Part shown: one piece after another, positions 1-5,063 of the stretch
Layout: each line of letters starts with the position of its first letter
Position numbering within the stretch: position 1 is the stretch's first letter
Source of the DNA: a bacterium
Lineage (GTDB): Bacteria; ARS69
Assembly: GCA_025774865.1 (NCBI GenBank)
Contig: JALGZO010000628.1
Coordinates: 1 to 5,090, forward strand
Length of the DNA stretch: 5,090 nucleotides
Reading direction: 5' to 3'
Position numbers and translations under genes: made by a program
The notes under the pieces: model-generated
What the model was told of the DNA's origin: nothing
The model's input: the letters and a program-made list of their open reading frames with translations, nothing else
Databases searched by the model: none

Positions 1-924
1 ACCCGCCCAAAGGCGATTCGTCACGACTCGATCGAGACCACGGCTCAGATCGAAGGCCGGCGCGCCGCGGCGAGAGCTCGCGCGCTCGGCGATCGACGCC
101 GCCTCACGGAAGATCGTCTCCATGACGCTGTCGTGGACACCGTGGCCCACCTGGTCGCGCAGAGTGCTGGCCACCCGCGAAAGAGAGCCGTCGGCGAGGG
201 AGCCGTCCCCTTCGAGAAGCCGGAGCGCGATCCATCGCCGGTTCGGCAGGTCGGCACGGGTCGCTTCGATCCAGGTCTCCAGCTTCCGGACCGAGTCCTC
301 GATCTCCCGCGAGTAGTGCAACCGCCGCGGGCGCACGTGCGTCCGCCCGGTGGCCACGTCGTGAATCGCCTCGATGAGGTTGTCGACGCCCTCACCACTT
401 CGCGCCGCCGTCAGAACTACCGGCACGCCCAACGATCGGGACAGCTTTTCCCCGTCGATCTCGAGTCCGGCCCGCTGGGCCTGATCCACGAGGTTGACGC
501 ACACGACCGCCCGCTCCGTGATCTCGAGCACCTGGAGGGCCAGGTTCAGGTTGCGTTCGAGAACCGTGGCGTCGACGATGACCACGGTGACGTCGGGCTG
601 CGCGAGGAGCAGAAAGTCGCGCGCGATCTGCTCGTCGCGGCTGGTGGAAAGCAGCGAGTACGTCCCGGGCAGGTCCACGAGCTTGAATCGCTCGTTCGCG
701 TATGAGAATCCTCCCTCCGCGCGGGTGACGGTCTTCCCGGGCCAGTTCCCGGTGTGCTGGCGAAGCCCGGTCAGCCGGTTGAAAACGGTGCTCTTTCCGG
801 TGTTCGGATTCCCCGCGAGCGCGACGACATAGTCCCACCGCTTCATGTCGATCCCGAGCTGGACGAGTTTGTGCGCGCGGCTCGGCACGCACGCCGCGCA
901 GGTGCGTCGTGCGGGTGCCTTCAT
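1..924 (-). CDS. feoB: Ferrous iron transporter FeoB, N-terminal part (cut by window edge)
   Basis: FeoB imports Fe(II) across the inner membrane; its cytosolic N-terminus is a GTPase. The 308 codons visible hold the G domain: G1 GNPNTGKS (38-45), the switch region around TGNWPGKTV (58-66), G3 DLPG (84-87), G4 NLVD (144-147) and a G5-like TAARSGEG (172-179). A GDI-like helical region follows to about residue 290. LDRVVTNR (297-304) is the usual lead-in to the first membrane helix, so the missing part should be the membrane domain; whole FeoB proteins usually have about 650-800 residues. The start at 924 is supported by GGGAGGG nine bases upstream and by the TGATG overlap with the preceding gene; Met27 is a less likely alternative. 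The first 26 residues contain C9-A-A-C12 and H18, a small possible metal-binding extension. Identity is seen directly from the motifs; the role of the Cys pair is inference. Confidence 0.96.
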   Translation of the reverse strand, partial: MKAPARRTCAACVPSRAHKLVQLGIDMKRWDYVVALAGNPNTGKSTVFNRLTGLRQHTGNWPGKTVTRAEGGFSYANERFKLVDLPGTYSLLSTSRDEQIARDFLLLAQPDVTVVIVDATVLERNLNLALQVLEITERAVVCVNLVDQAQRAGLEIDGEKLSRSLGVPVVLTAARSGEGVDNLIEAIHDVATGRTHVRPRRLHYSREIEDSVRKLETWIEATRADLPNRRWIALRLLEGDGSLADGSLSRVASTLRDQVGHGVHDSVMETIFREAASIAERASSRRGAPAFDLSRGLDRVVTNRLWAG

Positions 925-1952
925 CAGGCGTCACCCTCCCGCCGAGAGATGCACACCTGCTTCGCCTGTTCGTACCTCAGGGCGACCAGCGCACCGCGAA
1001 TGCGGTAGGCGGTCGGCTCACCGTTTCTCGCCCGAAACTCCGCGGTGATTTCGGTGCCCGGCAGGATTCCGAGGTCCATCAGGCGGCGCCGCTGGAGGCC
1101 GCGACACGTGGGTAGCAGGTGGATGACGGCGCCTCGTTCGCCGGACTTCAGGGAGGCCAGCGTATCGAATGGTCCCTCGACCTCGATGGGTTCTTCGAGC
1201 TGAACCACCGTGACGTTGGCCGCCAACACGGGAGCCAGCACCTGCTCGTCGCCGTCCGCCCAGAATCGGAGGCGCCCGGCCGAGTTCTCGATCAGCTGGA
1301 TCTTCATTCCGGGGTGCAGGCCTTGCGCGACGAGCTGCGAGAAGACGACTTCCGGTTCGTCCTCCAGGTGGATGATGGCGCCGCTCTCTCCCTCGGCGAG
1401 CGTCGTCAGAGCGCGGCCACGAAACTGGGGGAGCTCTCCGCTCGCGGTGGGAATGGGATCGCCGTGCGGGTCGAAGCGGGGGTGGCCGAGCCGTTCGGAC
1501 AGCTCTTCCGCCTCCTCTATCGACGTCGTGTGCTCGCGCTCTTCGGCGCGACGGTGCCATTCCGCGGCGTGCCAGCCGGTGTCCTCGGCGAAGTGCCGCT
1601 CCCAGAGTCGGTGAATGCGAATGATCCGAAGCGCGTACGTTCTGCCCTCGGGCGTCAGCTGGAAGGTCTCTCCGGCCATCTGGAAAAGACCCAGCCGCTC
1701 CATGCGTCCCAAGAGCTGCACGGCCCGGTCTGTCGGGATGTTCAACGCACCGGCCAGACTCTGAACCGACGGTGTCTGGCGTCGGTACTCCGCGTCGTAG
1801 AGGTGCTTGAGTGCGTCCTCGATGAGGACCCTCTCGTCGAGCCGGACGAGGCGGCGCGCCCGGGCCACGAGTCCGTGACGCGGCCACAGCACGATGGCCA
1901 GCATGGTCACGACGGCCGTTCCGGCGAGGAGGGCCCCGAGAGGATCGACCAT
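924..1952 (-). CDS. Membrane-anchored DtxR/MntR-type regulator fused to two FeoA domains
   Basis: A 342-residue protein in four parts. (1) Residues 6-23 form a hydrophobic helix followed by an Arg-rich stretch (25-37), which predicts a membrane anchor with the rest in the cytosol. (2) Residues 40-108 form a DtxR-type winged helix, with a recognition helix near 73-88 and the wing ending in LTPEGR. (3) Residues 109-170 are the metal-binding dimerisation domain. By alignment to DtxR, H114, E118 and H133 match H79, E83 and H98; E140 and H141 match E105 and H106. D46 and E137 stand at the Met10 and Cys102 positions, as D8 and E99 do in MntR. (4) Two SH3-like FeoA domains follow (about 178-252 and 262-336); the second has the typical RLMDLGILPGTEI core. 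Known DtxR-family proteins repress metal-uptake genes when metal-bound, and FeoA is the small partner of FeoB. Placement directly before feoB, with a one-base overlap, fits both roles. Start at 1952 has only a weak GGGG site; most likely first gene of the operon. Confidence 0.92.
   Translation of the reverse strand: MVDPLGALLAGTAVVTMLAIVLWPRHGLVARARRLVRLDERVLIEDALKHLYDAEYRRQTPSVQSLAGALNIPTDRAVQLLGRMERLGLFQMAGETFQLTPEGRTYALRIIRIHRLWERHFAEDTGWHAAEWHRRAEEREHTTSIEEAEELSERLGHPRFDPHGDPIPTASGELPQFRGRALTTLAEGESGAIIHLEDEPEVVFSQLVAQGLHPGMKIQLIENSAGRLRFWADGDEQVLAPVLAANVTVVQLEEPIEVEGPFDTLASLKSGERGAVIHLLPTCRGLQRRRLMDLGILPGTEITAEFRARNGEPTAYRIRGALVALRYEQAKQVCISRREGDA
934..940 (-). promoter_or_regulatory. 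Ribosome binding site of feoB inside the upstream gene
   Basis: The minus strand reads GGGAGGG nine bases before the ATG at 924. It lies within the last codons of the DtxR-FeoA gene. Together with the TGATG stop/start overlap it fixes the feoB start and implies translational coupling of the two genes. Confidence 0.7.
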
Positions 1953-2644: not shown

Positions 2645-4645
2645 TCAAGTCGAAGTGGTGCGCCTCTCCCGATAGAGCTCCTGGAGCTTGCGGCGCATCA
2701 GCTTGTTCGATGCGGTTCGGGGAAGCGCGTCGATCGGGATCACTTCGTGGATTTTGAACAGCGGATTGATGTTGTCCGCGATCAAGCGCCGGAGCTCTGC
2801 ATTGAGGTTCTCCGCGTCCTCCCGGTTCCCACGGCCAACCACGTAGACGACGAGTCTCTCGGCGCCCTCACCGCCGAGCTGGACGCCGATTGCAGCGCAC
2901 TCCGCCACGGCTTGATGGGTATTGAGAACGCGCTCGAGCTCGAGTGAGCCGACCTTGATGCCACCGAGGTTCATCGTGTCGTCGGTCCGTCCCTGCGCCT
3001 TGTAGAACCCCTGCCCGAGTTGCGCGAACTGATCCCCGTGGCGGCGGAGTACCTCTCCCCGAGGACCTGGCGGGCACTCCGCGTAGTAGGCTCGCTCGTG
3101 GTCGGCGTTCAACAGCGTCTGCGAAAGTCCGATCGAGGGAGGGACGAGGAAGAGCTCTCCGGCCTCGCCGACTCCGGCCGGCGTGGCGTCTTCCTGGAGG
3201 AGGCGAAAGTCGATTCCCAGGGCGGGTGTCGTGAAGGTGGCCGGGGAGGCGGGTTGCGCCAGCGTTCCCGTGATGTGCCCTCCGCCGATCTCGGTTCCCC
3301 CCAGGTATTCGATCACGGGGGCCCGGTAATCCGTGCGGCTCATGAGCCACAGGTAATCCTCTTGATTGGAAGGCTCGCCGGTGGAGCTGAATACGCGGAC
3401 GTCGTGCCACCGCTTCCGCCGCAGGAAGCCTCGGTTTCGCCAAGCCCGCACGAGCGAGGGGACCACCCCGAGCACGGATACCTTCGCGTCGGCGACGAAT
3501 TCCGCGAAACCAGCTCCCAGGGGAGCTCCCTCGTAGAGCGCGATCGTGGCTCGATTCATGAGGGACGCGAAGATCAGCCACGGTCCCATCATCCAACCGA
3601 TGTTCGTCGGCCACGCCACGACGTCTTCGCGGTGAATGTCCTGGTGAAAGTGCCCGTCCATCGCCCCTTTGATGGGCGTCAGATGGGTCCAGGGGATGGC
3701 CTTCGGTGTGCCCGTGGTTCCGGACGAGAAGAGGATGTTGATGGCGCGGCGCGGCTCACCCACCGACGAGCCGATCGCTTCGCCGCCGCCGATCAAGTCG
3801 TCCCACGAGAGATCTCCGTGGCGGAGCGCAGGCTCGGAGCCGCCGCGGTCCTTGATCACGACCGCCCGGGGGGCGCCGGCCTCTTTCACCTTCTCGTACA
3901 TGGGGACCCGCTTGCCGCCGCGCAGCTGCGCATCCACCGTCACGATCCCGTTCGCGTCAGAGATCGAGAGCCTCTTCGCCAGTTCAGCGGGGGTGAAGCT
4001 GTCCGCAATCGAAACGACACAACCACCGGTCTTCACGATACCGAGATACGCCGCGACGCACTCCAGGTTCATGGGCATGTAGAGAGCGATGCGATCGCCC
4101 TCGGAGAAGCCGTGGCGAGCCAGTCCCGACGCGACCCGATTCACCATTTGCCTGAGGTCGCGATAGCTCGTGACCGTGAGCTCACGGCTCCCCTCGCGCC
4201 CGGAGATCACCGCCGCCTTGTCCGGGGGCGCGAGAAAGCAGCTGTCGCAGATGTTCATCGAGGCCCCCGGTAACCAGCGCGGATCCCGGACGTCGCTCTG
4301 CGGATCGAGGATCACGGTCGGCGCTCGGTCGAACACGACCCCGAGGCGTTCGATGACGGTGCTCCAGAACTCGGGTCTCTCTCGCGCTGACCATCGGTGA
4401 AGCTTCGCGTAGTCCGAAAAGCCGTGATCGCGCATGCAATCGCCGAGGTGGGTTCGCGCCACGATGTCCGCCGTGGGTTGCCAGGCGAAGGGCGGTCCGT
4501 CGGACTCGGCTCGGCCCGTGTAGATCTCGCGGTAGAGATCCCACTGTTTCTCGAAGGGGTGGGGTGAGCGACCGAGCTCCTTCGCGAACGCGGCCCAGCG
4601 CTCGTCCTGTTTGGTTCCCTCGGGGGTCCGGGCTCTCCGGATCAT
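2645..4645 (-). CDS. AMP-forming acyl-CoA synthetase, plant AAE17/AAE18-like
   Basis: A complete 666-residue adenylate-forming enzyme, which should activate a carboxylic acid with ATP and then form its CoA thioester in the cytosol. Core motifs in order: P-loop FSSGTTGTPK (306-315), TNIGWMMGP (347-355), YLGGTE (447-452), RRHGD (534-538), QGRTDDTMNLGGIK (551-564) and PRTASNK (642-648), where K648 is the usual adenylation lysine. An N-terminal extension with LHRWSARERPEFW (82-94) resembles acetoacetyl-CoA and acetyl-CoA synthetases. PWTHLTPIKGAMDG (318-331), the YEGAPLGAGF segment and the C-terminal INPLFK match Arabidopsis AAE17/AAE18 most closely, from memory. The substrate is unknown; short- or medium-chain or substituted acids are possible. 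The start at 4645 is preferred because the upstream in-frame extension to 4813 is not protein-like and overlaps the neighbouring gene. No Shine-Dalgarno site is visible at 4645; translation may be coupled to a short ORF ending there. Confidence 0.93.
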   Translation of the reverse strand: MIRRARTPEGTKQDERWAAFAKELGRSPHPFEKQWDLYREIYTGRAESDGPPFAWQPTADIVARTHLGDCMRDHGFSDYAKLHRWSARERPEFWSTVIERLGVVFDRAPTVILDPQSDVRDPRWLPGASMNICDSCFLAPPDKAAVISGREGSRELTVTSYRDLRQMVNRVASGLARHGFSEGDRIALYMPMNLECVAAYLGIVKTGGCVVSIADSFTPAELAKRLSISDANGIVTVDAQLRGGKRVPMYEKVKEAGAPRAVVIKDRGGSEPALRHGDLSWDDLIGGGEAIGSSVGEPRRAINILFSSGTTGTPKAIPWTHLTPIKGAMDGHFHQDIHREDVVAWPTNIGWMMGPWLIFASLMNRATIALYEGAPLGAGFAEFVADAKVSVLGVVPSLVRAWRNRGFLRRKRWHDVRVFSSTGEPSNQEDYLWLMSRTDYRAPVIEYLGGTEIGGGHITGTLAQPASPATFTTPALGIDFRLLQEDATPAGVGEAGELFLVPPSIGLSQTLLNADHERAYYAECPPGPRGEVLRRHGDQFAQLGQGFYKAQGRTDDTMNLGGIKVGSLELERVLNTHQAVAECAAIGVQLGGEGAERLVVYVVGRGNREDAENLNAELRRLIADNINPLFKIHEVIPIDALPRTASNKLMRRKLQELYRERRTTST

Positions 4646-4701
4646 GGATCCGCGGCAAGGGGAGTCGTGATCATCGCCGCCGTGTCGAGGGCACGTCTCA
4701 T
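4642..4701 (-). CDS. Possible 19-codon leader ORF of the synthetase gene
   Basis: ATG at 4701 opens a short reading frame (MRRALDTAAM...) whose TGA overlaps the synthetase ATG as ATGA. The synthetase start has no clear ribosome site of its own, so reinitiation from this frame would explain its translation. TACAAT lies exactly six bases before the ATG, which would make the transcript leaderless. The peptide itself matches nothing I recognise and shows no amino-acid run typical of attenuators. A frame this short can arise by chance. Confidence 0.3.
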   Translation of the reverse strand: MRRALDTAAMITTPLAADP

Positions 4702-4707
4702 GCCCGG

Positions 4708-4713
4708 ATTGTA
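4708..4713 (-). promoter_or_regulatory. Possible -10 element TACAAT for the synthetase gene
   Basis: TACAAT on the minus strand matches the -10 consensus at five of six positions and sits six bases before the ATG at 4701, 62 bases before the synthetase start. No good -35 hexamer is found 16-18 bases further up (best is TGGCCG or GTGGCC), so it would be a -10-only promoter. The surrounding 4646-4790 holds no other credible gene. Confidence 0.35.
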
Positions 4714-4790
4714 CCGGAGGCGATGAGCCCGGCCACCTTCTTTCCGTGCCACCGGGGTGCCGGAGAATCTGCTGGACGCCAGCCGAGACG

Positions 4791-5063
4791 TCAGCGGACC
4801 AGGAAGATGTCATACACGATCAGCACGATCTCGAAGAAGATGAGCGCGACGATGTACCATTCGACCCGGATACCTTGCCGGTTCTGGAGGAGATTCAGGT
4901 ACATTTCCGCGGTCCCCGAAATCAGATCGAGCTTCCTCGACAGCGCCAGGTCACGGTCGCGTAGCTCGTACTCGGCGCTGCGAGAGACCCCTCCCATCAC
5001 GCCGTCGTTCACGATCCGCCAGCGATCGGCGGTCTCTTCGTCGAGCTGCACGACCGTGCGCAT
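4791..5063 (-). CDS. CIA30-like N-terminus joined to Rmd1/YagE (DUF155) membrane C-terminus
   Basis: A 90-residue ORF of two unlike halves. Residues 1-29 look like the start of a CIA30/NDUFAF1-type protein: the hallmark WRIVNDGVMGGVSRS spans 15-29. From about residue 30 it matches the C-terminal end of Rmd1/YagE proteins: EYELRDRDLALSRKLDLI, then a helix and RVEWYIVALIFFEIVLIVYD, a membrane segment (about 69-88). Both families are normally much longer (CIA30 proteins about 160-200 residues, Rmd1 about 250-300), so each partner is truncated. The start at 5063 has a good GAGGA site seven bases upstream and a TGATG overlap with a preceding frame, as expected for the true start of a CIA30 gene in an operon. 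The joint lies near 4973-4985. It may be a real deletion fusion or an assembly error; any product would be a small membrane-anchored remnant of doubtful function. The same frame stays open to the window edge, so a longer upstream start is not excluded. Confidence 0.65.
   Translation of the reverse strand: MRTVVQLDEETADRWRIVNDGVMGGVSRSAEYELRDRDLALSRKLDLISGTAEMYLNLLQNRQGIRVEWYIVALIFFEIVLIVYDIFLVR

Follow-up and report, generated by a model that had tools for sequence, protein, structure and literature searches.

The 342-residue protein encoded on the minus strand at positions 924..1952 of the window (the whole 5,090-nucleotide stretch analysed) is read here, with a probability of about one half, as a membrane-tethered, metal-sensing accessory subunit of the FeoB iron/manganese importer that would face the cytosol and present a FeoA domain to the FeoB GTPase. 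The features on which this reading is built appear in the sequences themselves: a membrane anchor, a composite architecture, conserved metal ligands, a degenerate DNA-binding domain, obligate linkage to feoB, and a spacing that excludes a free feoA gene. The protein belongs to a widespread and apparently uncharacterised family. Annotation models group such proteins with transcriptional regulators, an assignment that may be mistaken in most cases. Our literature search, with most subscription journals outside its reach, turned up nothing on an anchored DtxR–FeoA protein that stands alone, on its biochemistry, on split FeoB or on a link between the two. Each of the parts has a precedent: PgMntR combines DtxR with two FeoA domains, YtgCR joins a permease to DtxR, and FeoA is known to occur with FeoB.

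Domain architecture of the anchored protein

The start of the gene is well constrained. A start further upstream is impossible, since an in-frame stop lies just 5' of the ATG, and a start further downstream, which would omit the anchor, was rejected because both start and anchor are conserved: relatives share the start position and have an M-x-D/N-P-type N-terminus followed by the anchor.

The chain opens with a membrane anchor (residues 4-23; 1884..1943, minus strand, as for all segments of the gene), predicted to be N-out/C-in and identified by hydropathy, flanking charge, a modelled helix at residues 4-22 and profile alignment. A basic juxtamembrane segment follows (residues 24-44; 1821..1883), in which the modelled helix 28-56 starts before entering the winged helix. 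The winged-helix region (residues 45-100; 1653..1820) keeps the metal-site residue D46 and has a degenerate recognition helix (residues ~73-88) and wing. The DtxR metal-binding and dimerisation domain (residues 101-170; 1443..1652) carries the ligand positions H114, E118, H133, E137, E140 and H141 and is assigned by conservation, fold match and PF02742 (Fe_dep_repr_C), which scores 74.3 bits against a cut-off of 27 and matches all 54 relatives. Two SH3/FeoA-type domains complete the protein. The first (residues 188-252; 1197..1391) only reaches the Pfam cut-off (23 bits) and contains a near-invariant HxEDEP motif at residues 195-200. The second (residues 264-337; 942..1163) is a canonical FeoA domain with a strong match to PF04023 over residues 264-336 (54.1 bits); its core, RRRLxDLGxxPG and GDPxxYxI, is conserved in the family, and the FeoA model PRK09555 matches 46 of 54 relatives.

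The AlphaFold model, built with 54 relatives as input (mean pLDDT 91.3), contains the membrane-type helix 4-22 and the long helix 28-56, which leads into the winged helix, followed by the metal/dimer, SH3 and FeoA domains. The DNA-binding model PF01325 stays under its cut-off in the window protein (15.9 bits against 26); nevertheless, the winged helix is present as a fold. Residues ~37-252 have the fold of complete DtxR/MntR structures (5zr6_B: Z 25.8, rmsd 1.3, 206 residues). The sequence-only reading of this DNA, which had described an N-terminal membrane helix, a DtxR/MntR winged helix and two FeoA domains, was thus borne out by hydropathy, AlphaFold and Pfam in its overall layout, with one correction. 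Both SH3/FeoA-type domains were found, but the first corresponds to the SH3 domain that a full-length DtxR/MntR normally carries, because the alignment with 5zr6 extends to residue 252. The idea of two extra FeoA domains beyond DtxR was dropped, and the accurate description is an anchor, a complete DtxR/MntR and one canonical FeoA. The chain holds no ABC-3 permease domain, having 342 residues and one transmembrane helix. The window protein reaches the cut-off of no NCBIfam model.

Conservation of the membrane anchor

In the window protein the best 19-residue hydrophobic window covers approximately residues 5-23, with a Kyte-Doolittle value of 2.2. Among 84 aligned relatives the peak hydropathy of the anchor has a median of 2.5; it reaches at least 1.6 in 81 and is lowest at 1.51. 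The flanking charge lies on the C-terminal side in all 84, which predicts the N-out/C-in orientation. A chance hydrophobic stretch was ruled out by these values and by the profile match to permease–DtxR fusions described below.

Residues 1-156 were searched against the contigs of 84,980 genomes, which recovered at least 516 relatives; the best 80 of these were examined, and all 80 have the anchor. According to record titles, the relatives (at least 516) spread over about ten phyla. They include Ignavibacteria and other Bacteroidota, Chloroflexota, Acidobacteria, Gemmatimonadota, Calditrichota, KSB1, Latescibacterota, Planctomycetes, Myxococcales and Omnitrophota. In the phylum of the host, the protein was found in four of five genomes.

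As the first query contained the anchor, a second search was performed with a profile of residues 45-342 only, against 386 diverse genomes and with membership set at E <= 1e-50. Members were found in 19 of these genomes, 16 of them anchored and three anchorless, so the anchor is dispensable. In a Bacteroidota-type sample all 29 parsable members are anchored, and the low-scoring matches that were examined in full are ordinary single-SH3 regulators. In a phylogeny built from DtxR domains, the family linked to feoB forms one group (support 99/98), within which anchorless members arise at two or more positions. The anchor is therefore probably ancestral and was sometimes lost. Tethering, as originally proposed, depended on the helix being present in homologues and on the protein not starting past residue 30; both are borne out by the conserved start and anchor. 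The three anchorless members (L151, L152 and L153) still lie immediately 5' of feoB and represent natural losses of the tether.

Linkage to feoB

The anchored gene and feoB overlap by one base in a TGATG (922..926, minus strand), the TGA stop occupying 924-926 and the feoB ATG 922-924. This overlap, noted in the sequence-only reading, is real; the equal production of the two proteins that had been deduced from it is only suggested. The window is the whole contig, and feoB (1..924, minus strand) runs off its end after 308 codons, covering the GTPase domain and the start of the membrane domain in one frame (PF02421, 203 bits; PF17910).

The same order is found wherever it can be judged. A survey of the layout, which the earlier reading had called for, placed feoB directly downstream in all 78 loci with sequence left, among the best 80 of at least 516 relatives; the other two stop at a contig edge. 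The GTPase G1 motif starts 82-220 nt past the stop of the anchored gene in all 76 loci compared, a distance that leaves no free feoA between the anchored gene and feoB. The sequence QHTGNWPGKTV is present in all 76 loci. In 73 of them, a CxxC motif lies ahead of the GTPase domain of FeoB.

In about 60 of 75 loci (L025-L104) feoB is divided between two genes, one of ~265 codons for the GTPase and one of ~477 codons for the membrane part, often with a 4-nt overlap; a few of these cases, for example L038 and L094, may be assembly errors or reflect parsing limits. An intact feoB was found in 12 of the 75, and the feoB of the window continues past the position of the usual break without a change of frame.

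In 25 of the loci examined there is also a gene for a soluble DtxR/MntR whose DNA-binding features are intact, mostly directly upstream of the anchored gene. Overall, a soluble DtxR/MntR gene lies immediately upstream in many loci and is divergent in a few. In one further genome (G226), the soluble DtxR encoded ahead of feoB has two FeoA-like regions and lacks HxEDEP.

The upstream region of the anchored gene was also inspected. The search of positions 1800-2250 for a promoter, terminator or operator gave no sigma-70 or terminator match and only weak inverted repeats, for which reason no operator was assigned; Rfam detected no RNA element within the window.

Conserved metal site and degenerate DNA-binding domain

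The metal ligands and HxEDEP are among the most conserved positions of the family. D46, H114, E118, H133, E140 and H141 occur in all 84 aligned sequences, and position 137 is E in 76, D in seven and H in one. The Glu at this position, as in the MntR of Bacillus subtilis and instead of Cys, leans towards Mn(II) without settling the metal. This conservation bears on a reading in which the tethered FeoA alone matters and the DtxR part persists as a dimeric scaffold that has stopped sensing metal. FeoA alone is the usual partner of FeoB (PMC8980893), and with the DNA-binding part decaying, as described below, other parts could be inert too; however, a scaffold would not require conserved ligands and HxEDEP, and we consider this reading very unlikely.

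The winged helix shows the opposite trend. At E 1e-3, PF01325 is found in four of 54 anchored proteins as against all 25 soluble paralogues from the same loci, whereas PF02742 is found in every protein of both sets. The 25 loci that encode both an anchored and a soluble protein allow a paired comparison. Pairwise identity in the recognition helix is 0.30 for the anchored and 0.51 for the soluble proteins, and at contact-equivalent positions 0.23 and 0.52, whereas in the dimer/metal domain it is 0.62 and 0.57, respectively. The net charge of the winged helix is -3.2 in anchored and +0.8 in soluble proteins (Wilcoxon p = 2e-4). The signature T/S78, K/R/Q82 and K/R83 is complete in all 25 soluble paralogues and in three of 84 anchored proteins. 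The soluble paralogues keep A75, T78, M80, K/R82-83, Y94 and G96 of the recognition helix and wing, and the same positions vary in the anchored proteins. Judged by these comparisons, the winged helix of the anchored family appears to have largely lost the usual DNA-contact features.

The sequence-only reading had proposed a protein with two functions, which without cleavage would repress the feoB promoter from the membrane and also act on FeoB. All the domains required are on one chain, and membrane-anchored DNA-binding regulators are an established class; an anchored LacI is mentioned in PMC5599777. Against this dual role stand the degenerate DNA-binding features and the geometry of the model, in which helix 28-56 reaches ~9 residues past the native DtxR N-terminus towards the membrane, so that a helical stalk may clash with DNA. 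In DtxR structures that end of helix 1 must unwind to admit DNA. We regard the combined function as improbable. Its promoter half is weak because the DNA-binding residues are largely lost across the family, and the intact soluble DtxR/MntR encoded in 25 of the loci speaks against it as well. Direct control of the transporter is plausible; it fits a FeoA domain carried on a metal-sensing, membrane-bound protein beside FeoB.

Relationship to known regulators

The closest characterised relative is PgMntR (PG1044) of Porphyromonas gingivalis, encoded in an operon with the manganese-linked FeoB2 (PG1043). Like the window protein, it combines DtxR/MntR with two FeoA domains and shares an operon with FeoB; the likeness rests on domain layout and published residue spacing. 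Its predicted ligands H85, E89, H104, C108, E111, H112, D132, H134, H166, D169 and E170 correspond, at a constant offset of +29, to H114, E118, H133, E137, E140, H141, D161, H163, H195, D198 and E199 of the window protein. The near-invariant HxEDEP of the SH3 domain thereby matches the additional candidate ligands H166, D169 and E170 of PgMntR. Asp19 of PgMntR is at the place of D46. Unlike the anchored protein, PgMntR is soluble and has no anchor, and its Cys108 is replaced by Glu in the anchored family. PgMntR binds its own promoter (PMC4805248).

The second related system is that of the YtgCR-type fusions of an ABC-3 permease with DtxR, which are reported in 11 phyla (PMC5599777) and share with the anchored protein a homologous last transmembrane helix, juxtamembrane segment and DtxR domain. 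In hhalign, a profile of residues 1-44 aligned to the last transmembrane helix and following segment of these fusions (probability 91.8, E 7.5e-7; the next-best place reached 0.3%), and a profile of residues 1-175 aligned through the DtxR domain (99.9%, E 2.2e-36 over residues 7-171). The anchored protein is thus related to the C-terminal end of YtgCR-type proteins, since residues 1-44 align only there and the longer profile continues through the DtxR domain. In contrast to YtgCR, it has a lone transmembrane helix without the permease and an added FeoA domain, and its partner is FeoB and not an ABC importer. The permease–DtxR group does not come out as one clade on the DtxR-domain tree, so the anchored protein may have arisen either by loss of the permease or by capture of the anchor. 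One ABC-3 permease–DtxR fusion (L110) has an SH3 domain and lies nearer the soluble and anchored groups than do other permease fusions.

With soluble regulators of the DtxR/MntR/IdeR type (Deinococcus radiodurans MntR, 5zr6; IdeR, 1u8r) the protein shares the fold over residues ~37-252 and the metal ligands, and differs from them in having the anchor, a canonical second FeoA and degenerate DNA-binding features. With FeoA and natural FeoAB fusions it shares the canonical FeoA and the FeoB partner; here, however, FeoA is joined to an anchored DtxR, being neither free nor fused to FeoB. A published survey of FeoA fusions removed FeoA–DtxR fusions by hand (PMC8980893).

These relationships also suggest a membrane-stored repressor of the YtgCR kind, in which the DtxR part is clipped from its anchor, or acts at the membrane, and represses the operon when metal is plentiful, with FeoA as a regulatory or structural addition. 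The homology of the anchor to the last helix of permease–DtxR fusions agrees with this. In Chlamydia, YtgR is freed from YtgC and represses in an iron-dependent manner (PMC5599777), and DNA binding by PgMntR needs the second FeoA domain (PMC4805248). Since PgMntR binds its own promoter and YtgR represses transcription, the degenerate helix may still bind DNA. The recognition-helix and wing residues are, however, unconserved, the winged helix is acidic, PF01325 is detected in only 4/54 anchored proteins, and many loci have a second, intact soluble MntR; we therefore hold a stored repressor to be rather unlikely. The strongest counter-evidence to the subunit reading comes from the same comparison, in that both nearest characterised relatives, PgMntR and YtgR, bind DNA.

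Proposed role as a metal-sensing subunit of FeoB

Under the preferred reading, a single N-out/C-in helix would keep a DtxR/MntR-type dimer against the cytosolic surface of the membrane, with the MntR-type metal site retained and the winged helix apparently without its usual DNA-contact features. The canonical C-terminal FeoA would replace the missing free FeoA and, by analogy with other systems, meet the GTPase domain of FeoB. FeoA stabilises GTP-bound NFeoB in a natural fusion of Bacteroides fragilis (PMC8980893). Cytosolic Mn(II) or Fe(II) filling the DtxR sites could then cause a change of shape that moves FeoA on the GTPase or locks it there. Import would thereby be turned down, or perhaps up, as a post-translational feedback, and transcription would be left to the separate soluble MntR. 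The occurrence of the same anchored module fused to ABC-3 permeases, including two in the host genome, was counted in favour of the subunit reading. Finding one tethered DtxR module on two unrelated kinds of metal importer suggests a general route for building sensing into transporters.

A more specific version takes the split of feoB into account. We propose, tentatively, that the protein is a former repressor turned transporter subunit: as feoB is split in most relatives, the anchored DtxR–FeoA could be a metal-gated dock that brings the free soluble GTPase to the separate permease. If true, import would be switched by metal-dependent docking, and the result would be a regulated Feo system of three parts, different from both FeoAB and FeoABC. 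The family bears on two questions, namely what FeoA contributes to FeoB and how import by FeoB is stopped once metal is abundant. The metal sensor, FeoA and tether lie on one protein encoded next to feoB, with the GTPase often split off, and this makes metal feedback on FeoB testable with purified parts.

Other loci in the host genome and window

The host genome contains a second, canonical Feo locus on another contig (C779, 1-1002, minus strand), which encodes a short DtxR-like regulator, a free 79-aa FeoA and a feoB cut by the contig end. A further contig (C524) carries a TroA-like ABC operon in which a DtxR metal-binding domain is fused to each of two ABC-3 permeases and a soluble MntR heads the run; the genes of this permease–DtxR/MntR run lie at 1482-2750, 2789-4081 and 5835-6548 on the minus strand. 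In the window itself, a 157-aa reading frame on the plus strand (2143-2616) has a signal-peptide-like start and a glycine-rich stretch, and no Pfam match. Another gene (2645-4813, minus strand) encodes an AMP-binding enzyme with an acetyl-CoA-synthetase N-terminus, by resemblance of the acetoacetyl-CoA synthetase kind; translation probably begins further downstream than the listed ATG.
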